From contig JAHDEX010000018.1 in NCBI GenBank assembly GCA_020628545.1, positions 1 through 64,000 of the forward strand: 64,000 nucleotides of DNA, read 5' to 3'. This DNA comes from Paracoccaceae bacterium (GTDB lineage Bacteria > Pseudomonadota > Alphaproteobacteria > Rhodobacterales > Rhodobacteraceae). Below the pieces are notes generated by a model that saw only the letters and a program-made list of their open reading frames with translations, had not been told where the DNA came from and did no database searches. Shown piece by piece: positions 14,415 through 27,008 of this stretch. Each line of letters begins with the position of its first letter. The first letter of the stretch is position 1. A program made the position numbers and the translations under genes.

Positions 14415-15805
14415 CACGCCACCTCATCCGGGTTGGTCATCCGCAACAACATCTTCTGCCGCACGCGGTACGCCTCCTCCGCCACCAGCGCGAGGTTCTC
14501 CCACGCCGCCTGCGACCCCTCCAGCCAGCGCGCGACCTCAATCGCAAACTGGTTTCCACCGGGCCGGACCTCGCCCACCTGTTCGACATAGGCGCGCGGC
14601 ACCTTACCCTGCTGCGGCGTGCCCATAAGCCGCACGGCTACGACATTCAGCGCATCATCAATCAGTACCATCGACGCCCCCACCGCCGTATCATGCCGTG
14701 GCCCGTTCAACGTCCAGCCGCCCGTATTGAACACCCGCACCGGGTTCGGGCTCGCACGGCTGATCACACGGTCCGCGAAGGGCTTATGCGTATGCCCAAA
14801 GACAAAGGTCAGATCCTCCACATCCCCGTCCAGTTCCGCAGCGATCTGCGACCGCGCGACGCCGTCAATATACCAGCGCAGCCCGTCCCACCCTTCCGTG
14901 GTCAGCGGATCAATCACCGCCCGGCGTTCCGTATCCAGCATTGCACCAAGCGAGGCATCAAACCCAACCCGTGTCGCCCGCTTCAACGCCTCCCGCAGCG
15001 CGAGGTTGCCACTGAACGGCAAAGCCTCTGACAGCTTGTCCGCAACTACCTCTGTCCAATCGGCCGACTTCGCTCGAAACCCGGCCGCCGTCAGCAGACT
15101 CTGGTACAGGTCATAGGCCTCATCCGCGATCCCCGTCTCCCCCAGGCTGGCCCAAAAGAAGTCGAGCCACCCGGCATTCTCTGCCGCGATTTCTTCCACC
15201 GTGAGCCACCGGCGCGGGGCACCATCCAGAAAGTCCTTCAGGTCGCTCATCAGCCGATACGGGCGCTCAACAAAATGTCCATGATGCAAAAAAACCGCCT
15301 TCTTGCGATCGCCAAACCCGATGTTTGGATACCGCATATCTACGTCAGCAAATCCGACGAGATGTGCAATTTCCGTCAACATCCGGCTTTGCACGCGATC
15401 GTCGCTGTCAAACGCCCGCGTCGCCTTGCGATGGATCAGCCCGGGCGTCGGGCTCAGACGATCTTTGACCTCCAGGCCAAGCCGCGCATCCGTCCAAAGC
15501 GCATGATCATGGTTGCCCGCCGTTGCGATCAGCGTTTTGTCCAGCCGCCCCCCGGCGGTAAGCGCCTTCAAATGCGCCACCCCCGCCTGCGCCGCCCGCG
15601 CGCCGTCCGAGAACTGCAGATCAAGCAAGTCGCCCAGAACAATCAGCTGCGGCTGATCTTGCTGCTGCGCGAGAAACGCATCAAACGCCTCACCCAATGC
15701 CCGCGTCACCGGGCTCTGCCCGTCCAAGGTGATCTCGGTCAGAGGTGTCAGCAAACTGGTGAGCGCGCCCGCGTGCTGATCCGACAAACAAATGTATCTG
15801 AGCAT
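14414..15805 (-). CDS. Calcineurin-like metallophosphoesterase
   Basis: 463 residues starting MLRYICLSDQHAG. The binuclear-metal motifs are in order: SDQH (residues 8-11), GDLLD near 80, GNHDH near 115, HHGHF near 180 and FGHTHKPF near 340. The domain is larger than a minimal phosphoesterase; the extra helical insert between 190 and 320 has no clear relative. A TTG upstream at 15868 would add 21 residues, but the conserved first strand begins just after the ATG used here. It is the first gene of a three-gene coupled operon with the GMC-hydrolase and the cyclase. The substrate is unknown. Confidence 0.85.
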   Translation of the reverse strand: MLRYICLSDQHAGALTSLLTPLTEITLDGQSPVTRALGEAFDAFLAQQQDQPQLIVLGDLLDLQFSDGARAAQAGVAHLKALTAGGRLDKTLIATAGNHDHALWTDARLGLEVKDRLSPTPGLIHRKATRAFDSDDRVQSRMLTEIAHLVGFADVDMRYPNIGFGDRKKAVFLHHGHFVERPYRLMSDLKDFLDGAPRRWLTVEEIAAENAGWLDFFWASLGETGIADEAYDLYQSLLTAAGFRAKSADWTEVVADKLSEALPFSGNLALREALKRATRVGFDASLGAMLDTERRAVIDPLTTEGWDGLRWYIDGVARSQIAAELDGDVEDLTFVFGHTHKPFADRVISRASPNPVRVFNTGGWTLNGPRHDTAVGASMVLIDDALNVVAVRLMGTPQQGKVPRAYVEQVGEVRPGGNQFAIEVARWLEGSQAAWENLALVAEEAYRVRQKMLLRMTNPDEVA

Positions 15806-15960
15806 GACGTTAAGTAAGCCTTTCTCATCACCCTGTGCGGGACGGGGCCACTCTGTCAATGCAGACAACCCTAGGGTGACAAGCGCGAGTGGGCATGTTC
15901 ATCTCATCAAACGTGCCGTTTCGCGGGGCGGCCAAAACCACTTGCAACAACAGATTTTGA

Positions 15961-16725
15961 ATGAAAAAACTTTTTCCAATCCTATGCCTCGTCCTCCCCG
16001 CCTGCGACGTGATCGTCCCGGATCAGGACAATACACCCCCGGAACTCACCATCTCGATGTTTGATCCTGATGTTGTTGTCATCGCATCAAGCGACCCGAA
16101 CCGGGTCCTGCCGCGTGGCTGCCCCCCGGGCACATCCACCACGCCTGCGCTTGTCCGGGCCCACCTCGAGCAGACCGACACCGCTTATATTCCTCCGCTG
16201 GACGCGGCCTTCCTTGCTAATGAGACCTACTTCTACAAAGCCGACGGCGACAAACTTCGCTTCTGGTTCATCGCGAGGGACAACGAAGGCGTGAACTCGA
16301 TCAGCGCAATTGGTCATTCTCACGACCCCGACGCCCCGAACGCATACGAATTTCAGGCGCGTGGCGACATCGAGGACATTCAAGATCTGGGCGACTACGA
16401 ACAGGGCCCCAGCACAACACAGGAAATGGTACTGAATTCACCCTACCTGCCGATCACACCCGCAAACCAACCGGGGCTGGATTTTCGCTCAAACCTCGGC
16501 GACCTGCCCGTCTTCGTCCACAACCTGCGCGCGCCAGAGTTTGACATCGACGGCGCCCCGGCCACCAAAGACGGCCTCTTGCTTCCCGTTGACCCCATCA
16601 GCCTGATCGGCGGACCGGTCATCTACGCCTCCTCCGTCAGCGCGAGTGACGGTCCCGAAAACCAAGGGACAGAGGTCGCGGTCAATCTGCTCCCTCGTTT
16701 TCTCTGTCGCCCTGATCCCGACTAG
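15961..16725 (+). CDS. Putative lipoprotein of unknown function
   Basis: 254 residues with a short signal peptide ending in the lipobox LVLPAC (Cys15), so the mature protein should be lipid-anchored on the periplasmic side. The mature part is acidic, with NTPPELTISMFDPDVVVIAS right after the anchor and a FWFIARDNEGVNSISAIGHS segment that reads like an immunoglobulin-like beta-sandwich strand pair. Four further cysteines are few and scattered. No family recognised. It is divergent from the metallophosphoesterase gene and convergent with the methyltransferase gene. Confidence 0.7.
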   Translation: MKKLFPILCLVLPACDVIVPDQDNTPPELTISMFDPDVVVIASSDPNRVLPRGCPPGTSTTPALVRAHLEQTDTAYIPPLDAAFLANETYFYKADGDKLRFWFIARDNEGVNSISAIGHSHDPDAPNAYEFQARGDIEDIQDLGDYEQGPSTTQEMVLNSPYLPITPANQPGLDFRSNLGDLPVFVHNLRAPEFDIDGAPATKDGLLLPVDPISLIGGPVIYASSVSASDGPENQGTEVAVNLLPRFLCRPDPD

Positions 16726-16744
16726 GGAAAACCAGCGCGGCGCA

Positions 16745-17548
16745 CTAAGTGGCATGCGCTGTCACAACATGAATCTGCGCTGGAAATACGATTGCTCCGT
16801 TCAGTGCAGAACTGTCGCAGAACTCAATTAAGTCCGCTTTTATTGCGCTTAATTGATGCGCACCCACCTCCACTCCGCGCAGCATCATCCTAATCGTTAC
16901 CTTCATCAACATCTCCGCGACCTCTTCCGCCACATTCGGCGGTGTCAGGGTGACGTCCCGTGTCGCAATCTCAACCGTCCAACCAGAGGCCTCCAAGGCA
17001 GCCATCAATGCACGCGGCTCGCCAAAACGCATGGGTCCGGGCGTGTCCGGCTCCGGCGGCGGGACATCGGCAACATGCCGGTCGATGATCTGGCGTGGAA
17101 TTGCGAAATAGGGGTTGGCCGATGGCGGCCCCCAAACCGTCGCGGCCAGACGCCCTCCCGGTTTGACAGCTTGGCGCAGGTTCGCAAAGGCCGCAGCCGT
17201 ATCGGCAAAGAACATCGTGCCGAAATTCGAAATGACCGCATCAAACCGTTCAGGTTCAAAAGCATGGGTCTGCGCATCCGCCACAATCAGATCGACCGTA
17301 TCAGGCACCCTGCCCCGCGCGAATTTGATCAACGGCGGCGCGATATCCACCCCCGTCACATGCCCCTCCGGCCCAACGGCCTCCGCTGCCGCGCGCAGGG
17401 TCGGTCCAGTGCCACATCCAATGTCAAGGACCGCTTCACCCGACCCAAGCGCTGCGGCTTGCATCAACGTGTCCTGCACCGGTCGCAGCGTCTTTTCGAG
17501 TTCCTCGGCCGCTTCCAACCACGGCCGCGCCATTTCATCCCAATCCAT
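16745..17548 (-). CDS. Class I SAM-dependent methyltransferase
   Basis: 267 residues starting MDWDEMARPWLEAAEELEK. The SAM-binding motif I is VLDIGCGTGPT (about 42-52), followed by the acidic loop VTGVDIAPPLI and VISNFGTMFFAD (motif for the strand-4 region). The ATG at 17548 has GGGGGGAT upstream; an in-frame start at 17596 adds 16 residues without family likeness. The ubiquinone/UbiE-like subgroup is the closest by eye, but the substrate is unknown. It lies between the lipoprotein gene (convergent, 19 nt) and the replication initiator (same strand, 66 nt). Confidence 0.83.
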   Translation of the reverse strand: MDWDEMARPWLEAAEELEKTLRPVQDTLMQAAALGSGEAVLDIGCGTGPTLRAAAEAVGPEGHVTGVDIAPPLIKFARGRVPDTVDLIVADAQTHAFEPERFDAVISNFGTMFFADTAAAFANLRQAVKPGGRLAATVWGPPSANPYFAIPRQIIDRHVADVPPPEPDTPGPMRFGEPRALMAALEASGWTVEIATRDVTLTPPNVAEEVAEMLMKVTIRMMLRGVEVGAHQLSAIKADLIEFCDSSALNGAIVFPAQIHVVTAHAT

Positions 17549-17614
17549 GTCCGATCCCCCCAAATAGACTTTTGCTGAATGAGACGACTGTACCACAGTT
17601 TGACGGCGCTCAGT

Positions 17615-18781
17615 TCAGACCCCCTCCAGTTCCGCGAAAACGCCCGGCTCCACGTCCTCCCAAAACGCAAAGATCGCCTCGGCGTTTAGGGCCGACATCC
17701 ACCCATGCATTTCAAAGTCCTGCCGTGCCGCGGCCTCCGTGATCCGCGCAAGGAAGATCCGCTTATCCGCATCCCGTTGCGTCGGGCTCCGCCCTGCCAC
17801 CAGATCACGCACCACAGCCAACTTCCGCGCCCGCTCTGACTGCGGCGCCACGGCCTGCGCCTCCACCGGCTTGATCGCCGCCTGCAAATACCGCGCCGGG
17901 TTCTGCACATCGTCCCGCCCCGCCACATAGGCCAGCTTTTCGGCGACATAGCCTTCCCCATGCTCCGCAATCCACTGCCGCGCGAGCCGGTCACTTACGC
18001 CCAATACCCGCAGCCGCTCATAAACAGCCGTATTCCGCACCCCTGCCCCATCATCGATGTTCAGCACCGCCAATTGCGGGTTCTCCGCGATCTTAAACCG
18101 AATATCCGTCACCGCCCGTCCCATCTTCCGGGTCTCTGGCGTGACGATGATGTTCGACGTCTTGTTCACCTCCGCCACCGCCGGTTTGATGATCTTCGCG
18201 TTCAGATGCTTGAACGTCTCGTAATAGGCACTGTCATTGACCCCCATCAGCCGCCGGAACAGCTCCAGCGACCACCACCCGGTGCTGCCCGTCCGCACAA
18301 ACCGATAGCAGTTTTCATACAGCGCCAGCGCATGCCCGCTCGTGAACCGCTTCTGGATGTTGAGGTTGATCAACGCGAAGACCTTCGGGTCATGCAGCTT
18401 CTCCGCCAAAGCCGCGGAATAGGCATACTCACACACGCCCCCTTTCAGCTTCGCATAAGCCAGAAGGCTCGACACCCCCCACTCCTGCTGCCCGTTCTCA
18501 TCGAGCATGTCCCACTCAGCCAAGGTCTCCACCAACCCACGCAACGACGCCTTCAGCGTCTCCATGTCGTTGGAGTTATACCCAATCATCGTGCACAGCG
18601 TCCGCGCATCAATCCGGTGGGTCTGGTGATGGATCAGCGTGTCATAGGCGTTCAGCAAGAGAACGTTGGACAACTTGCGCTGCAACAACGTGAGCTTCCC
18701 GCTCACATGAATCGCCGCGACGTTCTTTTTGACGGTCGCACGGCGGAGGGCGCCGGTTAACGGCTTATGGTTATCTGTCAT
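17615..18781 (-). CDS. Plasmid replication initiator, Rep_3 superfamily
   Basis: 388 residues. Residues about 20-240 carry the paired winged-helix pattern of Rep_3 initiators: VSGKLTLLQRKLSNVLLLNAY, IGYNSNDMETLKASLRGLVETLAEWDM, and the second domain with GHALALYENCYRFVRTGSTGWWSLELFRRLMG. Such proteins bind iterons to open the plasmid origin. The C-terminal 130 residues are less conserved and helical. In the four-class roseobacter plasmid scheme (RepABC, RepA, RepB, DnaA-like), this would be RepB-type. It is divergent from parA; the space between holds three 22-bp iterons. The ATG has GAGGAG just upstream. Confidence 0.88.
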   Translation of the reverse strand: MTDNHKPLTGALRRATVKKNVAAIHVSGKLTLLQRKLSNVLLLNAYDTLIHHQTHRIDARTLCTMIGYNSNDMETLKASLRGLVETLAEWDMLDENGQQEWGVSSLLAYAKLKGGVCEYAYSAALAEKLHDPKVFALINLNIQKRFTSGHALALYENCYRFVRTGSTGWWSLELFRRLMGVNDSAYYETFKHLNAKIIKPAVAEVNKTSNIIVTPETRKMGRAVTDIRFKIAENPQLAVLNIDDGAGVRNTAVYERLRVLGVSDRLARQWIAEHGEGYVAEKLAYVAGRDDVQNPARYLQAAIKPVEAQAVAPQSERARKLAVVRDLVAGRSPTQRDADKRIFLARITEAAARQDFEMHGWMSALNAEAIFAFWEDVEPGVFAELEGV

Positions 18782-18866
18782 CTGCTCCTCGTCTCTCCTC
18801 TTGAGTGGGAGAGTCGCGCTACCTTACCGCAAAAGGCACCCGACGCCAATAATTTGACGGGCACCT

Positions 18867-18896
18867 ATCTACGGGATGAAGGTGCGTCCCGTAGAT
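18867..18896. repeat. 10-bp inverted repeat in the origin region
   Basis: ATCTACGGGA (18867-18876) and TCCCGTAGAT (18887-18896) are perfect inverted arms with a 10-nt spacer. It lies about 85 bp upstream of the rep start on the rep side. It could be a rep-autoregulation operator or an RNA hairpin in the rep leader. No T-run follows on either strand, so a terminator is unlikely. Confidence 0.6.
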
Positions 18897-19035
18897 GGAT
18901 ACCTTTAAGACTGATGCGCTCATCTCAGCGTCGCTCAAAGGGACCCGGATACAGGAGCATCCTGGGGATAACTTTCTGCGTGAGGCTCTAACATGCGAAC
19001 TTCAGTGTCTAACCCATTGAAAACCTGCGAATCGG

Positions 19036-19093
19036 CACCTTTTCTCCCGAAACCGCGCACCCTTGATCCCGCATCCGGGTACCCTTTATCCCG
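19036..19093 (+). repeat. Three iterons with 22-bp period
   Basis: CACCTTTTCTCCCG (19036), CACCCTTGATCCCG (19058) and TACCCTTTATCCCG (19080) share the consensus YACCYTTNNTCCCG and start exactly 22 bp apart, i.e. two helical turns. This is the spacing expected for initiator-binding iterons of Rep_3 plasmids. More degenerate copies may flank the array at about 19012 and 19102. Confidence 0.75.
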
Positions 19094-19152
19094 GAAAGAG
19101 CGACCCAAGAGGATGTAAGTCATTGGCCTAAAATGCTTTTCCAAGGTCAAAG

Positions 19153-19167
19153 TCTATAAAGTATAGA
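19153..19167. promoter_or_regulatory. Palindrome in AT-rich segment upstream of parA
   Basis: TCTATA-AAG-TATAGA is a 6-bp inverted repeat with a 3-nt centre inside the AT-rich part of the origin, about 155 bp before the chosen parA start. It may be part of the parA promoter/operator or of the unwinding element. Short AT palindromes are not rare, so the call is tentative. Confidence 0.35.
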
Positions 19168-19181
19168 TAGTTCTAAAACAG

Positions 19182-19194
19182 CTTCGCTGCGAAG
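19182..19194. repeat. Centromere-like palindrome 1 (CTTCGCTGCGAAG)
   Basis: Shorter variant of the TTTCGCWGCGAAA palindrome, intergenic upstream of parA. It is a perfect palindrome around the central T (19188). As it lies before parA, it may also serve as the parAB operator. Confidence 0.65.
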
Positions 19195-19321
19195 ATCTTT
19201 CAATATAGACTATGAATAGAGGGATTTTGCACGAGCAGACCACTTCCTGATTCTCATTTGCCCAATCATGTGCGATAGTTTTGACCAAATCAAAACAAAC
19301 GGCGCACATACAGGCAACTTC

Positions 19322-20686
19322 ATGACATCCTCCGAAAAGGCCCCCCTGCCCCCTTACATGCAGATCGACCCTGCAAAGGCGGCAGAGAAGCTGGCCCCTC
19401 CGATTGACACCACCCGCTTTGCCAAGGCGGCCTCCTTTGCCGCCAAAGGGCGCGAAGACCTCGCCAAGCGCGGCCATGCCCCAGATGGGCACAAGCATCT
19501 GCGCCGGTTCTCCACGTGGGAGGTCTGTCGCTACATGATCCCCGTGGCCCCTGCCCACCTGCGGCGTGTCCTCAAGCAGAACCCGGACCTGCCGCAAGGC
19601 ACGGGCGACGGCGGAACAAAGTGGTTCACACTCGACGACATCATTTCGCTGCGAAAATACCTCGCCAAGGAAGGGTCCGCCGGGAAGGAGTACCTCCCCT
19701 ACCGGCCGGAAGGCGCTCCTGCAAAAATTATCAGCGTGGCAAACTTCAAAGGCGGCGTTGGCAAGACCTCGACCGCCGCGCATCTGGCCATGTCCGCCGC
19801 CCTCGACGGCTATAAGGTGCTTGTGATTGATCTGGACAGCCAAGGATCCATGACCTCGATCATGGGTGGGCAGGTCCAGGACGAATGGCAAACCGCCTTC
19901 CCGCTGCTCGCCAAGGACTACGCGATCAATGTCGAGGCCGCGAACCGTACCCGCGAAACCCCCCTGCCCCTCGATGAGACACTGACTGAGGCGCGCAAAA
20001 TGAACGCCCGCGACGTCATCCAGTCGACCCATTGGCCCAACATCGACCTGATCGGCGCGCAACTGAACCTCTACTGGGCCGAATTTCAGGTCCCCGTCTG
20101 GCGGATGCAGCACCGGTCCTGGCCGTTGTGGGAGGCGCTCAGCAACGCACTGTCGGGTGAAGGGATATTAGAGGAGTATGATATCATCCTTCTCGATACG
20201 CCCCCGGCCCTTGGGTATCTGACGATCAACGCGCTTGCCGCCGCCGATATCCTGCTGGTGCCTTTGGGCGCATCGTTTCTGGAGTTCGACAGCACAGGCC
20301 GGTTCTTTGATATGCTCTACAGCACCTTCGCCAGCATCGAAGACGGTGAAAACGCACAGCGCCGCCGCGAAGGCTTGCCCGAGATGAAGTTCGAATGGGA
20401 CGCCGTGCGCGCGATTGTCACCCGCTTTGACGCCTCGCAGCAGACCGATCTGGCGAATGTGATCCAAGCCTATTTCGGCGACTTCATGACAACCTACCGG
20501 CAAGAGGTCACCGCGATGGTCGGACAGGCCGGCGAGAACGTGAACGGTATCTACGAGGCGGATTACCGCGACTTCAACCGTGACACTTACATCCGTGGGC
20601 GCGAAACATTCGACCGTACATGGGCTGAGGTTAAAGAAGTCTTACTCGGCACCTGGTGGCGCGACGCACAGATGCAGGACACTTGA
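19322..20686 (+). CDS. parA: Plasmid partition ATPase ParA (type Ia)
   Basis: 454 residues. The N-terminal 140 residues form the DNA-binding extension typical of type Ia plasmid ParA proteins (VCRYMIPVAPAHLRRVLKQNPDLPQ resembles a helix-turn-helix). The deviant Walker A motif is FKGGVGKTSTAAHL near residue 145, Walker A' is VLVIDLDSQGS and Walker B is DIILLDTPPALGYLTINAL. It drives plasmid segregation with ParB. The ATG at 19322 was preferred (MTSSEKAP, AGG about 8 nt upstream); an in-frame ATG at 19268 would add 18 residues but has no ribosome site. One palindrome lies within the coding sequence (19644-19656) and two more just after the stop. Confidence 0.93.
   Translation: MTSSEKAPLPPYMQIDPAKAAEKLAPPIDTTRFAKAASFAAKGREDLAKRGHAPDGHKHLRRFSTWEVCRYMIPVAPAHLRRVLKQNPDLPQGTGDGGTKWFTLDDIISLRKYLAKEGSAGKEYLPYRPEGAPAKIISVANFKGGVGKTSTAAHLAMSAALDGYKVLVIDLDSQGSMTSIMGGQVQDEWQTAFPLLAKDYAINVEAANRTRETPLPLDETLTEARKMNARDVIQSTHWPNIDLIGAQLNLYWAEFQVPVWRMQHRSWPLWEALSNALSGEGILEEYDIILLDTPPALGYLTINALAAADILLVPLGASFLEFDSTGRFFDMLYSTFASIEDGENAQRRREGLPEMKFEWDAVRAIVTRFDASQQTDLANVIQAYFGDFMTTYRQEVTAMVGQAGENVNGIYEADYRDFNRDTYIRGRETFDRTWAEVKEVLLGTWWRDAQMQDT
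19644..19656. repeat. Centromere-like palindrome 2 inside parA
   Basis: TTTCGCTGCGAAA, perfect 13-bp palindrome, read in the parA frame as part of IISLRK. Part of the family of sites around parAB. Confidence 0.75.
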
Positions 20687-20689
20687 GAC

Positions 20690-20730
20690 TTTCGCTGCGA
20701 AAATACGCAAGATGATTTTCGCAGCGAAAA
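20690..20730. repeat. Centromere-like palindromes 3 and 4 between parA and parB
   Basis: TTTCGCTGCGAAA at 20690-20702 and TTTTCGCAGCGAAAA at 20716-20730, with centres 27 bp apart, fill the short parA-parB intergenic space. The first starts 4 nt after the parA stop. Two different central bases (T and A) read as the same site on opposite strands, so the pair is arranged in opposite orientation. Confidence 0.8.
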
Positions 20731-20757
20731 GGCAGAGCAGTAAAAAGGGGAAACCCC

Positions 20758-21834
20758 ATGGCAAAACGCACCAAACTGACGGCCCCCAGCGCCGAAGACC
20801 TTGCGAAACTCGACGCTGATTTTCGCAGCGAAAATCGGGTCCGGCCCAACCCGGCCACGGCACCCATCGCGAGCGTCGCCGCTGAAACCGCGCAGACCGC
20901 AAGCATCGAACCTGCACAGCAAAAGCTGAACCGGCTCGACGCCGAACGCCTGCGCGACGCGGAAGAGCAGGGCCGTCTGATCGAAGAAATTCCCATCGGT
21001 CAGATCAACGAACTTGCCATGGTGCGCGACCGGTCGATCATCGATCCGGACGAGATGAAAGAACTGCAGGTCTCGCTCATCGCCAATGGCCTGCGCCTGC
21101 CGATTGAGGTCTACAAAACGGACGACGGTTATGGCCTGATCTCCGGCTACCGCCGCTTGCTGGCCACACGTGAATTGAATGCCAGCTACCCAACCGAATA
21201 TCTCACCATCAAAGCGCTGGTGCGCGCCAAGCAGGACACGCCGAAAGCGATCCAGGCAATGGTCGAGGAAAACGAGATCCGCTCTAACCTCAGCCACTAC
21301 GAACGCGGCCGTATCGCCGCGATTGCCGCAAAACAGGGCGCGTTCAAATCGACCGACGATGCGATCAACGGGCTCTTTGCTTCGGCGTCTCCTGCGAAGC
21401 GCTCCAAGGTCCGGTCGTTTGCCGAAATCTTCGCCGACCTTGGCGATCTGCTAAAGTTCCCCGAGGACCTGTCCGAACGCCGTGGCCTCCGTCTCGCCGG
21501 TGCGCTCCGCATGGGCGGCGTCCAACAACTCCGTGCTGCGTTAGAGCAGGGGGGCTTCGCCAATCCCCAGCAGGAGTGGGAGGCGCTGGAGCCGATCATC
21601 ATGGCCTTTGATGAGAAGCCGCAGACCACCCCAAAACGTGGCCGTCCAAAGATGCCGCCCATCGCCGGATGGGATGGCGACACGCTCACATTGGCCTCCG
21701 GGATTTCGCTGCGAAAAGAGCATGACGGTCATGGCTACCTCGTACGTATCTCGGGCAAGAACATCACCAGTGAATTGCTCGACAGCATGATGATCGAGAT
21801 GCAGTTCCTGCTGGATAAGCCCAAAAAGCGCTGA
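20758..21834 (+). CDS. parB: Plasmid partition protein ParB
   Basis: 358 residues. The ParB/Srx-like domain spans about 75-165, with the CTP-binding boxes recognisable as LISGYRRLLAT (GxRR-like) and VEENEIRSNLSHYERG (the ENxxRxxL-like box). A helical DNA-binding region follows (residues 175-235). The C-terminal 120 residues include a basic TPKRGRPKMPP stretch and probably the dimer domain. It follows parA by 71 nt and should be co-transcribed. Two palindromes lie in its coding sequence (20818-20836 and 21704-21716) and one directly after its stop, which is unusual for a partition gene. Confidence 0.92.
   Translation: MAKRTKLTAPSAEDLAKLDADFRSENRVRPNPATAPIASVAAETAQTASIEPAQQKLNRLDAERLRDAEEQGRLIEEIPIGQINELAMVRDRSIIDPDEMKELQVSLIANGLRLPIEVYKTDDGYGLISGYRRLLATRELNASYPTEYLTIKALVRAKQDTPKAIQAMVEENEIRSNLSHYERGRIAAIAAKQGAFKSTDDAINGLFASASPAKRSKVRSFAEIFADLGDLLKFPEDLSERRGLRLAGALRMGGVQQLRAALEQGGFANPQQEWEALEPIIMAFDEKPQTTPKRGRPKMPPIAGWDGDTLTLASGISLRKEHDGHGYLVRISGKNITSELLDSMMIEMQFLLDKPKKR
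20818..20836. repeat. Centromere-like palindrome 5 inside parB
   Basis: GATTTTCGCAGCGAAAATC, the longest copy: a perfect 19-bp palindrome around the central A at 20827. In the parB frame it encodes DFRSEN near residue 22. Confidence 0.8.
21704..21716. repeat. Centromere-like palindrome 6 inside parB
   Basis: TTTCGCTGCGAAA within the 3' part of parB, encoding ISLRK, the same peptide and phase as the copy within parA. Confidence 0.75.
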
Positions 21835-21849
21835 TTTTCGCTGCGAAAA
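21835..21849. repeat. Centromere-like palindrome 7 after parB
   Basis: TTTTCGCTGCGAAAA begins on the base after the parB stop codon. Perfect 15-bp palindrome. Confidence 0.78.
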
Positions 21850-21966
21850 GGCGCGGGTTGTCGCGTAACATATTGATATTAAACAATATCGAAATCGTGA
21901 AGGTGCGGCAATTGACCAAAATGGCCGCCTGGCCCAGCGTGCGGTCATCCAACACTGAAGGTTCCC

Positions 21967-22788
21967 ATGCGCTTCTCCCTCGCCATCACCGCTCTGTTTG
22001 CCATCGCCCCATTTGCGGCGTCTGCCCAAGACTGCGGTCCCACCGCGCCTTGTGAAATCGAAGGCGGCAGCTACCACCTGCGCTTGCCGGAAGGGGAGGG
22101 GCCGCACCCGGTGCTGATCTGGTATCACGGCCACCGCGGCAACGGCGCGTCGATCCACCGGGGCGGCGGTTTGGAGCGGGACTTCCTGAACAACGGTTAT
22201 GCGCTCCTTGCGCCCAACGGCTACCAAAGCAGCCCGGACGGGCCACGGTCCTATCCGGCCCGCGAAGGCGCTCCACGCAACGATGTGGCGTTTACCTTTG
22301 CCGCGTTGGAAGCGGCGAGCGCACGTGCCGACCTCGATATGGATCGCCTCTACGTCGGCGGCTTCTCTGCCGGTGGGTCGATGGCTTGGCTTCTGGCCTG
22401 TGAGGCGGGCGACCGGCTGAAAGGGATGGTCTCCGTCGCAGGCGCGCTGCGCCGTCCGAACCCGACCGACTGCGCGGGGCTGGCAGGATTGCCGGTGCTG
22501 CAGGTGCATGGCTTCGCTGATGGCCAAGTGCCGTTTGAAGGGCGTCAGATCCGCGATTGGCACCAAGGCAGCGTCTGGGAGGCCCTCAGGCGCGCCAGAG
22601 AGGCCAATGGCTGCCGGACTAACCCGGATGCCATCACAAGCGATGAGAACTTCCGTATGCGCCTCTGGAGCGCCTCCTGCGCCGGTGCGCCGGTCCGGTT
22701 GGACATTCATGATGGTGGTCACGGGCTTCCAAATGGCTGGACGGAACGGGCACGGGCGTTTCTCGAAGGGGCCTCGACCACGCAGTGA
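21967..22788 (+). CDS. Secreted alpha/beta hydrolase, LpqC / PHB-depolymerase-like esterase
   Basis: 273 residues with a signal peptide (cleavage after AASA, about residue 20). The esterase catalytic triad is visible: nucleophile Ser in GGFSAGGS, Asp in HGFADGQVPF, and His in DGGHGLPNGW. The oxyanion region is PVLIWYHGHRGNG. The family includes extracellular poly(3-hydroxybutyrate) depolymerases and feruloyl-esterase-like enzymes, so export to the periplasm or outside to cleave an ester is likely. Four to six cysteines in the mature part could form disulfides. It follows parB by 132 nt on the same strand, with a palindrome between, and is unlikely to be a partition gene. Confidence 0.82.
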   Translation: MRFSLAITALFAIAPFAASAQDCGPTAPCEIEGGSYHLRLPEGEGPHPVLIWYHGHRGNGASIHRGGGLERDFLNNGYALLAPNGYQSSPDGPRSYPAREGAPRNDVAFTFAALEAASARADLDMDRLYVGGFSAGGSMAWLLACEAGDRLKGMVSVAGALRRPNPTDCAGLAGLPVLQVHGFADGQVPFEGRQIRDWHQGSVWEALRRAREANGCRTNPDAITSDENFRMRLWSASCAGAPVRLDIHDGGHGLPNGWTERARAFLEGASTTQ

Positions 22789-22847
22789 AGCGTTGAAACC
22801 GCAGCCAAACTTGCGCAAGGTCGCTGGACCGGGCAGGGGAGGACGCG

Positions 22848-23591
22848 GTGGAGCTGCGATTGGATGGCAAACGGGCGCTGGTGACGGGCGCGTCGAGCGG
22901 GCTTGGCCAGCACTTTGCCGGTGTTTTGGCCCGGGCCGGGGCGGAGGTTGTGCTGGCGGCGCGGCGGGAAGAGAAGGTTTTGGCCAATGCCAACGCCTTA
23001 CGCGCCCAGAATTTCGCTGCGAAATCCGCCGATCTTGACGTCACCAACCCGGCAATGGTCGCTGCCTTTTTCGCCCATGAAACCCCATTTGATGTGGTCG
23101 TGAATAACGCTGGGATCAGTGGTGCGGGCGCGGCATTGGATACCACGACCGACGAGTTCAACGCTGTGATCCAGACCAACCTGACCGGGGTTTTCACAGT
23201 CGGGCGTGAAGCCGCCAAAGCGATGAAAGACACGGGCGGGTCGATTATCAACATCGCGTCGATCCTCGGCCACCGCGTGTCCGGCGGTGTCGCGGCCTAT
23301 GCGGGCTCGAAGGCCGGGGTGGTGCAACTGACCAAGGCGCTTGCGCTGGAATGGGCACGCCATGGCATCCGGGTCAATGCACTTTGTCCGGGCTATATCG
23401 CGACACCCATCAACGCGGATTTCTTCAAGACACCGGCTGGAGACGCCTTGATCAAACGCATCCCGCAACGGCGGTTGGGGCAACTAAGCGACCTCGACGG
23501 CCCGCTCTTGCTGCTCGCCTCTGACGCAGGTGGGTTCATGACGGGATCAACGCTTGAAGTGGATGGCGGGCATCTGGTGTCGGGGTTGTAG
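22848..23591 (+). CDS. SDR-family oxidoreductase
   Basis: 247 residues, classical short-chain dehydrogenase. NAD(P)-binding TGASSGLGQ near residue 15, NNAG near 85, catalytic Ser in IASILG and the YAGSK active-site pair (Tyr/Lys) near 150, and the late PGYIATP and TGSTLEVDGG motifs. The GTG start at 22848 follows a GGACGCG stretch; there is no strong ribosome site. It heads an operon with an acyl-CoA dehydrogenase (9 nt gap) and an APH-like kinase, so its substrate is probably a hydroxyacyl-CoA or hydroxy acid. A copy of the partition palindrome lies within it at 23011-23025. Confidence 0.87.
   Translation: MELRLDGKRALVTGASSGLGQHFAGVLARAGAEVVLAARREEKVLANANALRAQNFAAKSADLDVTNPAMVAAFFAHETPFDVVVNNAGISGAGAALDTTTDEFNAVIQTNLTGVFTVGREAAKAMKDTGGSIINIASILGHRVSGGVAAYAGSKAGVVQLTKALALEWARHGIRVNALCPGYIATPINADFFKTPAGDALIKRIPQRRLGQLSDLDGPLLLLASDAGGFMTGSTLEVDGGHLVSGL
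23011..23025. repeat. Centromere-like palindrome 8 inside the SDR gene
   Basis: ATTTCGCTGCGAAAT, a perfect 15-bp palindrome 1.2 kb beyond parB inside a metabolic gene, encoding NFAAKS. It is the outermost copy found. Confidence 0.75.
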
Positions 23592-23600
23592 GAGAGTACA

Positions 23601-24806
23601 ATGGATCTCACGATATCGAGCGAAATCAATGCGTTGCGGGAGGGTATTGCCGCCTTCGTGGATGAAAACCTGATCCCGCTCGAAAGCGATCCGGCCTCCT
23701 ACGACGATCATGAGAACATTCGCCTGCCGCTGCTGGAAGAGATGCGCGCGAAGGCCAAGGCGGAAGGGCTTTGGTGCCTGCAATTGCAGACTGAGACCGG
23801 GGGCAGGGGGCTGAACAAGCAGGGGATGGCGGTTTGCTATGAGGCGATGAACCGCTCGATCTTTGGTCCGGTCGTGTTCAACTCTGCAGCACCCGATGAT
23901 GGCAATATGATGGTGCTGGAAAAGCTCGGGACGGCGGCGCAGAAGGACCGTTGGCTCGCGCCGCTGGTGCGTGGTGAGGTGCGGTCTGCCTTTGCGATGA
24001 CGGAGCCGCATCCGGGCGGTGGTTCCGACCCGGGGATGATGCTGACGCGGGCCGAGAAGGATGGCGATGACTACGTCGTCACGGGCCGCAAGTGGTTCAT
24101 CACCGGTGCGGGGGAGGCGTCGCATTTCATTTTACTCGCCCGGACCTCTGACGACGCGCGACGCGGGCACACAGCGTTTCTGTTTCACAAAGACGACCCG
24201 GGTTGGGCGATCATCCGGCGCATTCCGATCATGGGGCCGGAAGAACATGGCGGGCATTGCGAGTTGCAGTTCGACGGGCTCCGCATCCCGAAAGAGAACA
24301 TCCTGCTGGAGGAGGGCAGGGGGCTGAAGGTCACGCAGACCCGGCTTGGTCCAGCGCGGTTAACCCATTGCATGCGGTGGCTGGGGCTGGCGAAGCGGTG
24401 CGTGGAGATCGCGACCGATTATGCGTCGGCGCGTGAAGGCTTTGGCATCCGGCTTGCGGATCGGGAGAGTGTGCAGGTGAAGCTGGGTGATCTGGCGATG
24501 CGGATTGAAGTGGGGCGGTTGCTGACCATGAAAGCCGCTTGGGAGATCGACCAGGGGCGCTATGCGCAGAAAGAAATCTCCATGGCCAAGGTGCATGTAG
24601 CGAACCTGCTGCATGATGCGGCGGATACGGGTATCCAGATCAACGGGGCGCGTGGGTACTCCAAGGATACTGTCCTTGAATGGATCTACCGCTATGCGCG
24701 GCAAGCGCGGCTCGTCGATGGGGCGGACGAGGTGCATAAGATGCTGCTCAACCGCCATCTGTCTGAGCTGGGGAGCGATTTCTGGTCCTGGGATGTGGCG
24801 CCGTGA
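23601..24806 (+). CDS. Acyl-CoA dehydrogenase (ACAD10/11-like)
   Basis: 401 residues, full length for a flavin acyl-CoA dehydrogenase. Typical blocks are visible: FAMTEPHPGGGSDP (FAD-contacting), YVVTGRKWFITGAGEA, and the C-terminal GYSKDTVLEWIYRYARQARLVDGADEVHK, which carries the substrate-base region. The pattern and the presence of an APH-like kinase immediately downstream match the ACAD10/ACAD11 group, where phosphorylated 4-hydroxyacyl-CoAs are processed. The start is 9 nt after the SDR stop with AGGAGA upstream, and the stop overlaps the kinase GTG by 4 nt. Confidence 0.88.
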   Translation: MDLTISSEINALREGIAAFVDENLIPLESDPASYDDHENIRLPLLEEMRAKAKAEGLWCLQLQTETGGRGLNKQGMAVCYEAMNRSIFGPVVFNSAAPDDGNMMVLEKLGTAAQKDRWLAPLVRGEVRSAFAMTEPHPGGGSDPGMMLTRAEKDGDDYVVTGRKWFITGAGEASHFILLARTSDDARRGHTAFLFHKDDPGWAIIRRIPIMGPEEHGGHCELQFDGLRIPKENILLEEGRGLKVTQTRLGPARLTHCMRWLGLAKRCVEIATDYASAREGFGIRLADRESVQVKLGDLAMRIEVGRLLTMKAAWEIDQGRYAQKEISMAKVHVANLLHDAADTGIQINGARGYSKDTVLEWIYRYARQARLVDGADEVHKMLLNRHLSELGSDFWSWDVAP

Positions 24807-25831
24807 CAGTGGAGGTTGTGGGCGACTGCGACTTCGACCCGGGTGCTTTAGGTGCCTATTTACAGGATGCCTTGCCACCGCAAACGGGTCCCTTTCGGTT
24901 GGTGCGGATTGGCGGTGGGCAGTCGAACCCGACCTATTTCCTCGACTGGGGTGTGCGGCGGCTGGTGCTGCGCAAGAAGCCCAACGGCGTGGTCTTGAAG
25001 GGTGCGCATGCGGTGGAACGGGAGCATCGGGTGTTGGCGGCTTTGCAGGAGAGTGCTGTGCCGGTGCCAGAGGTGGTGCTGCTCGAAGAGGATGCCAGCG
25101 TGATTGGCACGCCATTCTACCTAATGGAGCGGGTGGAGGGGCGCGTGTTTGCGGACCCGGCTTCGACGGACGCGCCTTTCGCGGATCGCCATGCGATGTG
25201 GATGGCGGCGGCTGAGACCTTGGCCAAGATGCATCGGGTGGATTGGCAGGCCGTGGGGCTTGACGGGTTCGGGCGGCCCGCTGGATATTTTGACCGGCAA
25301 GTGGCGCTGTGGGATCGCCAGTATCGGGGCTCAAGTGGTGATCCGATCCCGGAGATTGAGGCACTTTATGACTGGCTGATCGCGCATATGCCGGACGACG
25401 ATGGGGTGTCTGCGATCTGCCACGGCGACTTTCGGATTGGGAATCTGATTTATCACCCGACGGAGCCAAAGGTGGTTGCCGTGCTGGATTGGGAGTTGTC
25501 GACGATTGGGCATCCGATGGCGGATTTGGGGTTCATCTGCATGGCCTGGTATTCATCCTCGGACGAATATGGCGGGTTGTTGGACCGGGATTTGGGGGCT
25601 TTGGGCTTGCCGGAGGAGGCGGCGTTTTTGGCGGCCTATGGGGCTGCATTGGGGCGGCCCTTCACTCTGACGGCGTTTCACCGGGCCTTTGCGCTTTATC
25701 GGTTTGCGGTGATCTTTGTGGGGATCGCGGATCGGGTCAGGGCGGGGACGGCAACAGATCCGCGGGCGGCGGCATTGGCTCCACTGGCGGCGCGATTTGC
25801 GCGGCGGGGGTTGCAAGTTACCAAGCTGTGA
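24803..25831 (+). CDS. APH-like phosphotransferase (acyl-CoA-associated kinase)
   Basis: 342 residues of the aminoglycoside-phosphotransferase fold. Nucleotide loop GGGQSNPTYFL near residue 35, the catalytic loop CHGDFRIGNLIY (HxDxxxxN) near 210 and the metal motif VLDWELSTIGHPMADLGFI (DFG equivalent) follow the ACAD10/11 N-terminal kinase pattern rather than antibiotic kinases. It overlaps the acyl-CoA dehydrogenase by 4 nt (GTGA). The pair probably phosphorylates and then eliminates a hydroxyl group from 4-hydroxyacyl-CoA, as described for the LvaA/LvaC system and mammalian ACAD10/11; the substrate here is inferred. Confidence 0.86.
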   Translation: MTVEVVGDCDFDPGALGAYLQDALPPQTGPFRLVRIGGGQSNPTYFLDWGVRRLVLRKKPNGVVLKGAHAVEREHRVLAALQESAVPVPEVVLLEEDASVIGTPFYLMERVEGRVFADPASTDAPFADRHAMWMAAAETLAKMHRVDWQAVGLDGFGRPAGYFDRQVALWDRQYRGSSGDPIPEIEALYDWLIAHMPDDDGVSAICHGDFRIGNLIYHPTEPKVVAVLDWELSTIGHPMADLGFICMAWYSSSDEYGGLLDRDLGALGLPEEAAFLAAYGAALGRPFTLTAFHRAFALYRFAVIFVGIADRVRAGTATDPRAAALAPLAARFARRGLQVTKL

Positions 25832-26018
25832 TGGCGGCTTGCGCGGGGCGGATTGTTCTTGCTTGCGAAACACAGTGATCGCGGATCCGTTTCAACATAC
25901 CTTGAATTCACCGCAGTTCGGCAGCCTTCTGGCTAAGTCCCAACACATTAAGAATCAATTATGTGCACATGTCCGCGATCATTCGATTCGGATTTGTTGT
26001 GTATTTATGAGGTCTTAT

Positions 26019-26951
26019 ATGTCACGCCATATAGCAATGACGCTCAAAGCGGTTGCCTTCGTTCCCCTTGCATTGATTTCGCCCAATCTGGCGGCTGCCC
26101 AGTCTGACAGTTGGTCCGCCTATCTTGAGCCGGCCGCGCTGAGCGAGCGGATTGCAACGGGTGATGAGGTTCAGATTATTGATATTCGGAGTTCGAAGTA
26201 CGTCAAACGCGGCATCATTCCTGGTGCTGTCTGGATTCCGTTCCCGGAATGGCGCGGTGACAAGGAGCGGCCGGGTCAGGTACCGACCGAGGAAGAGCTT
26301 GAAGCGATGTTGGGTGCCAATGGCATCGACCCGAACAAGCCCATTGTGATCTATAACCACGCGGCGAAGACGGTTCAGACCGGACGGTCGGCGATTGTGT
26401 ATTGGATCCTGAAGTCGGCGGGTGCCGAGGACCTTGCGATCCTGAACGGCGGCTTTAAGGCCTGGGCCGGCATGTCATACCCAGAGGCGGAGGCACCGAT
26501 TGCGCCGACGCCTGTGAGCGTTGATATCACCTACACCGAAGAGTGGTGGGCCGATGCGATGGATATCTTTGCCGTGACCTCTGGTCAGGTGGATGGGGCG
26601 ATCCTGGATGCGCGTCTTGATGCGCAGGTGCGCAAGTCCGTTGAGACCGGCGAGCCGATGATGAGCATGCCGATGGCGCAGTATGTGCCTGCGAGCCTGT
26701 TCACCAACCCGATGTCATCCAGCCGTTTGACAGCGGAAGGGCAGGCGGACTTTATCGCTGAGTTGACAGACCGTGGGATTGACCCGGGCGACGGATTTCT
26801 GATCAGTGTGTGCCAGACCGGTGAGCTGAGCGCGCTGTCGTGGTTCTATGCGTCGGAGATTCTGCAGCTCGAAGACGTGCGTTACTATCCTGATGCGCTG
26901 AAAGGCTGGGAAGGCGACGGTGGTCTGATGTTCGGAATGCGGACCCAGTAG
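26019..26951 (+). CDS. Periplasmic double-rhodanese sulfurtransferase
   Basis: 310 residues with a signal peptide (about 1-27, ending NLAAAQS). There are two rhodanese domains. The first (about 45-155: VQIIDIRS, GIIPGAVWIPF, VIYNHAAKTVQTGRSA) lacks a cysteine in the active loop and is probably structural. The second (about 175-305) has the catalytic loop CQTGELSA with Cys265. Typical thiosulfate or mercaptopyruvate sulfurtransferases have this inactive-active order. The ATG at 26019 has GAGG 6 nt upstream; another ATG at 26007 is possible. A strong terminator follows at 26975. Confidence 0.87.
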   Translation: MSRHIAMTLKAVAFVPLALISPNLAAAQSDSWSAYLEPAALSERIATGDEVQIIDIRSSKYVKRGIIPGAVWIPFPEWRGDKERPGQVPTEEELEAMLGANGIDPNKPIVIYNHAAKTVQTGRSAIVYWILKSAGAEDLAILNGGFKAWAGMSYPEAEAPIAPTPVSVDITYTEEWWADAMDIFAVTSGQVDGAILDARLDAQVRKSVETGEPMMSMPMAQYVPASLFTNPMSSSRLTAEGQADFIAELTDRGIDPGDGFLISVCQTGELSALSWFYASEILQLEDVRYYPDALKGWEGDGGLMFGMRTQ

Positions 26952-26974
26952 CACCTTTTTCATTGCGAATTATT

Positions 26975-27008
26975 GAAAACGACGGGCTGTCCCGTCGTTT
27001 TCTTCGTT
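26975..27008 (+). terminator. Rho-independent terminator after the rhodanese gene
   Basis: A perfect 12-bp stem, GAAAACGACGGG (26975-26986) and CCCGTCGTTTTC (26991-27002), with a 4-nt loop, followed by TTCGTTTGG. The T-rich right arm gives the usual terminator shape. Confidence 0.85.

Follow-up and report, generated by a model that had tools for sequence, protein, structure and literature searches.

Centromere sites (parS) that lie inside open reading frames (ORFs), and even inside parB, are already known, and the locus described here is a variant of that arrangement. Published cases include parS within ORFs of Rhodobacterales repABC plasmids (PMC9040568), a parS sequence identified as the one in the parB gene (PMC4333373), and parS-359 of B. 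subtilis (PMC4442127), which also lies in the coding sequence of parB itself but is chromosomal. We analysed a 64,000-nt stretch of the draft genome of a marine Paracoccaceae bacterium (contig JAHDEX010000018.1 of assembly GCA_020628545.1, positions 1 to 64,000; hereafter the window), in which a palindrome of the form TTTCGC-n(1-2)-GCGAAA is repeated around the partition genes parA and parB. Very probably these palindromes act as parS-like sites that are recognised by the ParB whose gene lies among them, and on the best reading of the sequence some of them would double as operators. An initial annotation, made from the letters alone, had called the copies inside genes unusual, which is too strong in view of the precedents (PMC9040568, PMC4442127).

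The repABC plasmids of Rhodobacterales and Rhizobiales (PMC9040568, PMC5613091) likewise carry several palindromes near the par operon, some of which fall within downstream ORFs in Rhodobacterales or at the 5′ end of repB in Rhizobiales, and a single reciprocal base change separates their compatibility groups. The window differs from them in having a divergent Rep3 initiator and not a RepC encoded in one operon with repAB, and its motif is not the repABC parS consensus GTTnnnnGCnnnnAAC (PMC9040568); its eight sites and their flanks have no GTT...AAC ends. Moreover, copies are held here inside parA and parB across many genera. The operator OB of KorB on IncP plasmids (PMC2680271, PMC11790492) likewise pairs a ParB-family protein with a palindrome of 13 bp, TTTAGC(c/g)GCTAAA (16 bp according to PMC11790492), which is used for repression at several promoters. 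OB differs from the exact window sites at positions 4 and 10, in the arms, and usually at the centre base too, and the window locus gives no evidence of long-range silencing. No chain named KorB was found among the PDB matches of the window ParB, KorB itself not having been aligned.

Among plasmid records, the closest matches listed come from roseobacters and Paracoccus and share the replicase-parA-parB set; one of them, a 72-kb Dinoroseobacter shibae plasmid, stands second in both listings. We take the pTAV3-type Paracoccus megaplasmids to be of the same class as this plasmid. The D. shibae plasmid has been classed as RepB-I (PMC9426580), and the available parts of the RepB-I and pTAV3 literature (PMC9426580, PMC3832669) contain no description of these palindromes. 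Paracoccus aminophilus pAMI6 has the same annotated gene order as the window and three exact 13-bp sites: one precedes parA, one lies in parB at an identical offset of 63 nt, and one comes just after parB. The closest named ParB relatives are those of Yoonia and Loktanella, which makes an origin of the window in that genus probable. Searches by motif string, plasmid type and coding parS, whose coverage did not extend to key older papers, found neither this motif on this replicon class nor a coding site that slides in frame and changes its spacing.

Clustering and recurrence of the palindrome

The 13-bp palindrome TTTCGCWGCGAAA occurs exactly seven times in the window, at 19644, 20690, 20717, 20821, 21704, 21836 and 23012 (span 19644-23024), and the perfect palindromes at the sites are 13, 15 or 19 bp long. 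TTTCGCTGCGAAA lies within parA at 19644..19656, in the parA-parB gap at 20690..20702 and within parB at 21704..21716, encoding ISLRK in both genes. The longest palindrome and the most conserved site is the 19-bp GATTTTCGCAGCGAAAATC at 20818..20836, which spans codons 21-27 of parB and encodes DFRSEN. Three 15-bp palindromes complete the set: TTTTCGCAGCGAAAA in the parA-parB gap (20716..20730), TTTTCGCTGCGAAAA directly past the parB stop codon (21835..21849), and ATTTCGCTGCGAAAT at 23011..23025 inside a gene for an SDR (short-chain dehydrogenase/reductase) oxidoreductase, where it encodes NFAAKS. An eighth site, CTTCGCTGCGAAG at 19182..19194, is a symmetric degenerate copy, a perfect 13-bp palindrome with both outer bases off TTTCGCWGCGAAA; it precedes the probable start of parA by 140 bp and is a candidate operator. 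The motif scan thus recovered the seven full copies and the shortened one of the initial annotation, together with all of its encoded peptides; six of its coordinates stand, and the other two are shifted by one base, namely 20820 and 21835, the latter being where the extended palindrome of 15 bp begins.

When up to two mismatches are allowed, 10 matches are found in the window against a shuffle mean of 1.98, and none of 100 shuffles reached 10, in agreement with the earlier view that the recurrence is not due to chance. The exact scan likewise confirmed that no copy lies elsewhere in the window, where only two 2-mismatch matches stand outside the cluster (4661 and 61799), and neither the 13-bp nor the 14-bp form was found at 60001-66584, which includes the last 2.6 kb of the 66,584-bp contig. 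The draft genome (4.34 Mb, 142 contigs, 94% complete) has 9 exact copies of TTTCGCWGCGAAA; an even spread of the motif over the genome would have spoken against the parS or ParA/ParB operator reading that the initial annotation had put forward, and 7 of the 9 fall within 3.4 kb around parAB. A chance origin of the cluster is ruled out by the shuffles and the genome-wide count.

Recurrence was followed in 58 loci, the window and 57 homologous parB loci of the same genus and family (the best matches among those listed), with TTTCGCN(1-2)GCGAAA, exact or with at most one mismatch, as the motif and the reversed pattern as control; parA could be placed in 52 of the 58, and in the six others, which lack a match to the Walker pattern, sites in parA were not counted as such. 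Exact copies, taking both spacings together, are present at 56 of the 58 loci at least once and at 52 at least twice. Two or more exact copies whose centre is 1 nt occur at 44 loci, most of the others having the 2-nt form, single copies or a variant. Sites with at most one mismatch recur at fixed places, namely parB codon 21/22 (50 genes), parA residue 227 (19 genes, mostly VSPRN), parA residue 38 (14 genes; FAAK), upstream of parA, just after parB and, 9 times, within the rep ORF; three genus relatives (L067-L069), like the window, have two sites in the parA-parB gap.

These positions bear on an alternative in which the sites are mainly transcriptional operators, for ParA (through its N-terminal DNA-binding part), ParB or another plasmid repressor, and the true centromere lies elsewhere. 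This would fit the copy at 19182, upstream of parA, and those between parA and parB, as well as similar upstream copies in relatives and the precedent of KorB, a ParB-family protein that represses through a very similar 13-bp palindrome (PMC2680271). Most copies are not upstream of parA, however: of 198 sites with at most one mismatch at the 58 loci, 102 lie in parA or parB and 35 within 200 bp after parB, and 19 lie in the 600 bp upstream of parA. Moreover, among perfect palindromes with arms of 6 bases, none but this one recurs at the window locus (15701-27000). We regard this alternative as improbable, and parS-like sites for ParB as the better account of the same positions.

Genome-wide counts weigh on a second alternative, in which a transcription factor of the host chromosome, with TTTCGC-nn-GCGAAA as its operator, uses the sites. 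The 58 genomes hold 434 exact copies of TTTCGCN(1-2)GCGAAA (85 of the reversed control pattern), and 168 of the 434 lie inside the 0.60 Mb of par loci examined. What speaks for such a factor is a longer core, GTTTCGCnnGCGAAAC, shared by all 19 of the scattered 14-bp copies sampled from two genomes (G092 and G035; L243-L260). Against it, the window genome has just two further exact 13-bp copies, and the 14-bp form is matched in the window only with two mismatches, 2 times against 4.51 expected by chance, i.e. less often. The ten genus genomes in which ParB has a close homologue (E at most 5e-93) carry 2-9 exact TTTCGCWGCGAAA each, 39 of the 47 on the par contig, and 38 of the 46 genus genomes without a close ParB homologue have none. 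A host factor is highly unlikely to account for the cluster. As for the 19 sampled GTTTCGCnnGCGAAAC copies, 6 lie outside every ORF of at least 90 aa and 13 are overlapped by mechanical ORFs; they are possibly operators of an unrelated regulator with the same half-sites. One genus genome, G433, has twelve exact TTTCGCWGCGAAA over ten contigs, and a ParB homologue was not found in it at E 1e-30.

A palindrome kept in the DNA of parB

The copy at parB codon 21/22 (at most one mismatch) is present at 50 of the 58 loci, the window included: as a 13-bp site in phase 0 at 35 loci, as a 13-bp site in phase 2 at 7 and as a 14-bp site in phase 2 at 8, with none at the remaining 8. The peptides encoded there are FRSET, FRRET and the like in phase 0, GFAAKP and the like in phase 2, and mostly GFARET for the 14-bp form, which has its left half-site in the shifted register and its right half-site in the old one. 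Judged by its sequence, the 14-bp form is a natural intermediate between the two registers; the direction of the change we infer. In a second sample, the best 80 of 549 named loci, 21 ParB genes overlap the first set and 59 are new; 56 of the new genes have the site at codon 21/22 (51 exact and 4 with one mismatch in phase 0, 1 in phase 2), and 3 have none.

Synonymous resampling kept the peptides and drew on the codon usage of each locus's own parA and parB (2000 resamplings). The codon-22 site is exact in 46 of the 58 genes against 2.06 expected, with a resampling maximum of 7; over whole genes, parA holds 33 exact sites in 52 genes against 0.29, and parB 53 in 58 against 2.2. This comparison of synonymous sites, which the initial annotation had suggested, supports constraint at the level of DNA. 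One site is kept in relatives even when it is read in a different frame, so that conservation seems to act on the DNA and not on the protein. That the palindromes merely follow from codon usage, the FRSE and FAAK peptides being kept for protein reasons, has on its side the near invariance of F22 in 55 aligned ParBs and is rejected by the resampling and by conservation in two frames with different peptides; where the site is lost the peptide is usually different too (LLLKP, ITRDA, FQRDT; L102, which keeps FR, is the exception), and we give this explanation practically no weight.

Three copies of the window look recent. The parB-316 copy (21704) is at that codon and phase in none of the other 57 loci, the D. 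shibae 72-kb plasmid (L075) having a 1-mismatch copy two residues on in the other phase, and the parA-108 copy (19644) is found at the same position in 3 of 51 other aligned parA genes, one of them with 1 mismatch. In the SDR gene the codons of the site are without the palindrome in all 9 relatives examined (61-73% identical; drawn from a search of 394 family genomes at E 1e-85). These copies resemble the proposal for Rhodobacterales repABC plasmids that parS is selected even within coding sequence (PMC9040568).

Coordinated change and half-site spacing

One locus, L080, has no standard site within one mismatch and carries four perfect palindromes TTTCGTnACGAAA that share a compensated change, at parA residue 227, at parB codon 22, after parB and after rep; two further 2-mismatch matches there are not palindromic. 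Its parA encodes VSSRN, as does that of L084; the others that have this site encode VSPRN. Spacing changes together as well: at loci with a 2-nt centre in the parB site, 16 of 21 other exact sites also have a 2-nt centre; the corresponding figures are 3 of 72 and 0 of 15 for the two groups with a 13-bp parB site and 2 of 14 for loci without a parB site. The shared changes suggest that one protein reads all sites of a locus, and ParB would be the natural candidate. Two ParB residues (window numbering) are correlates only: F221 is the same in the 57 other ParBs and is Y in L080; at residue 225, all 15 ParBs whose sites are in phase 2 carry H, and the 35 whose sites are in phase 0 carry F or Y. 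A paired test of codon-22 spacing against the other sites had only 2 independent pairs, so that significance was unreachable.

From a second, related ParB group, 23 loci (L202-L224) were taken, from 22 of the 26 genomes with at least two ParB matches. Exact copies occur in 18 of the 23 fetched stretches, some of them 2-4 kb from parB, and 33 of 41 have a 2-nt centre (the 14-bp TTTCGCnnGCGAAA), the other 8 a 1-nt centre. Twelve genomes have a mainly 1-nt first locus and sites at the second; 11 of them differ in spacing between the two, and G107 has 1-nt sites at both. G270 and G357 have 2-nt sites at both loci, G035 is mixed, and 7 genomes give no call. Two replicon classes in the same genomes hence share half-sites and often differ in spacing. 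As a strict compatibility code, spacing is only partly supported, and the contrast is not independent evidence, because the second group is a different ParB group.

Tentatively, and leaning slightly towards doubt, we propose as one joint claim that a centromere built into parB at a fixed codon dictates part of the ParB peptide; that it may have slid by one base via the 14-bp intermediate (FRRET, FARET, FAAKP) with the DNA site intact; and that co-resident replicons would be kept apart in part by a half-site spacing of 1 or 2 nt together with changes at positions 6 and 8. If spacing does help to set compatibility, plasmid co-residence would be partly predictable from sequence. The locus would also be a natural experiment on joint change, in a DNA site and in the protein whose coding sequence runs through it and which is probably its reader.

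Probable partition function of the locus, and neighbouring features

Clustering, rarity elsewhere, recurrence and coordinated change are what parS or ParB operator sites predict, and the reading draws its support from the cluster, its recurrence in two overlapping genome samples, the four-copy change in L080 and the near-absence of the motif elsewhere in the draft. As in type I ParABS systems, a Walker-type ParA ATPase is encoded beside a ParB (its ParB_N match just above the curated cut-off), and in the window genome a repeated palindrome is clustered at the par operon and rare elsewhere; in relatives this last feature holds in part, by the share of exact copies within par loci given above. 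Several observations weigh on the other side. Two of the 58 loci have no exact copy, 266 of the 434 exact copies are outside the par loci examined (many concentrated in few genomes), and 21 copies, including the 12 of G433, are found in 8 of the 46 genus genomes without a close ParB homologue. The parB copy is missing in 8 of 58 and 3 of 59 relatives; one of the 8 is L080, with its symmetric variant, and another is the D. shibae 72-kb plasmid, which has one exact 14-bp and five 1-mismatch copies. When the site columns are left out of the ParB tree, phase changes once on it and spacing twice, and therefore the sequence counts overstate the number of independent events.

From these data we infer that a ParB dimer would bind by reading the two half-sites TTTCGC and GCGAAA, would probably load at the sites as a cytidine triphosphate (CTP)-dependent clamp and then spread, after which ParA would separate sister plasmids; the sites would also confer incompatibility. 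Those that precede parA or lie between parA and parB would probably, in addition, let ParB, ParA or both repress their own operon. Several sites would lie in coding sequence because the DNA is selected, the protein tolerating and following the resulting peptide. Across a large class of plasmids and chromids in Rhodobacterales, the motif is probably that of the centromere.

The candidate centromere-binding protein is encoded by parB (20758..21834, + strand; Pfam ParB_N 4.5e-06, 27.0 bits against a cut-off of 26.3), whose product is below the cut-offs of NCBIfam partition_RepB and parB_part; its profile matches solved Noc/ParB N domains (best 5.4e-11). Invariant in 55 ParB sequences are S129, G130, R132 and R133 and E171, N172, E173 and R175, which may form the CTP-binding boxes. 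The Walker-type partition ATPase gene parA (19322..20686, + strand; Pfam AAA_31 1.8e-32) scores 218 bits with NCBIfam partition_RepA, below the cut-off of 348. Its start is probably 19322, 426 nt before Walker A, and not the earlier in-frame ATG at 19268, because most relatives share the former. The Rep3-family replication initiator (17615..18781, − strand; Pfam Rep3_N 2.5e-19, Rep3_C 5.4e-16) is divergent from parAB, and is followed in order by parA, parB, an esterase-like gene and the SDR gene (22848..23591; Pfam adh_short_C2 1.2e-54), all on the + strand, the last a bystander with a site. Iterons of a Rep3 origin were rejected as an identity for the palindromes, there being no direct-repeat family in 18782-19330 and the palindromes reaching far past that region, and an RNA hairpin was set aside by reasoning, 6-bp arms with a 1-base centre making a poor hairpin. 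Upstream of parA, at 19147-19215, a 12-nt inverted repeat (TCAAAGTCTATA / TATAGACTATGA) flanks the degenerate palindrome at 19182, and is possibly part of the promoter or of a ParA operator.

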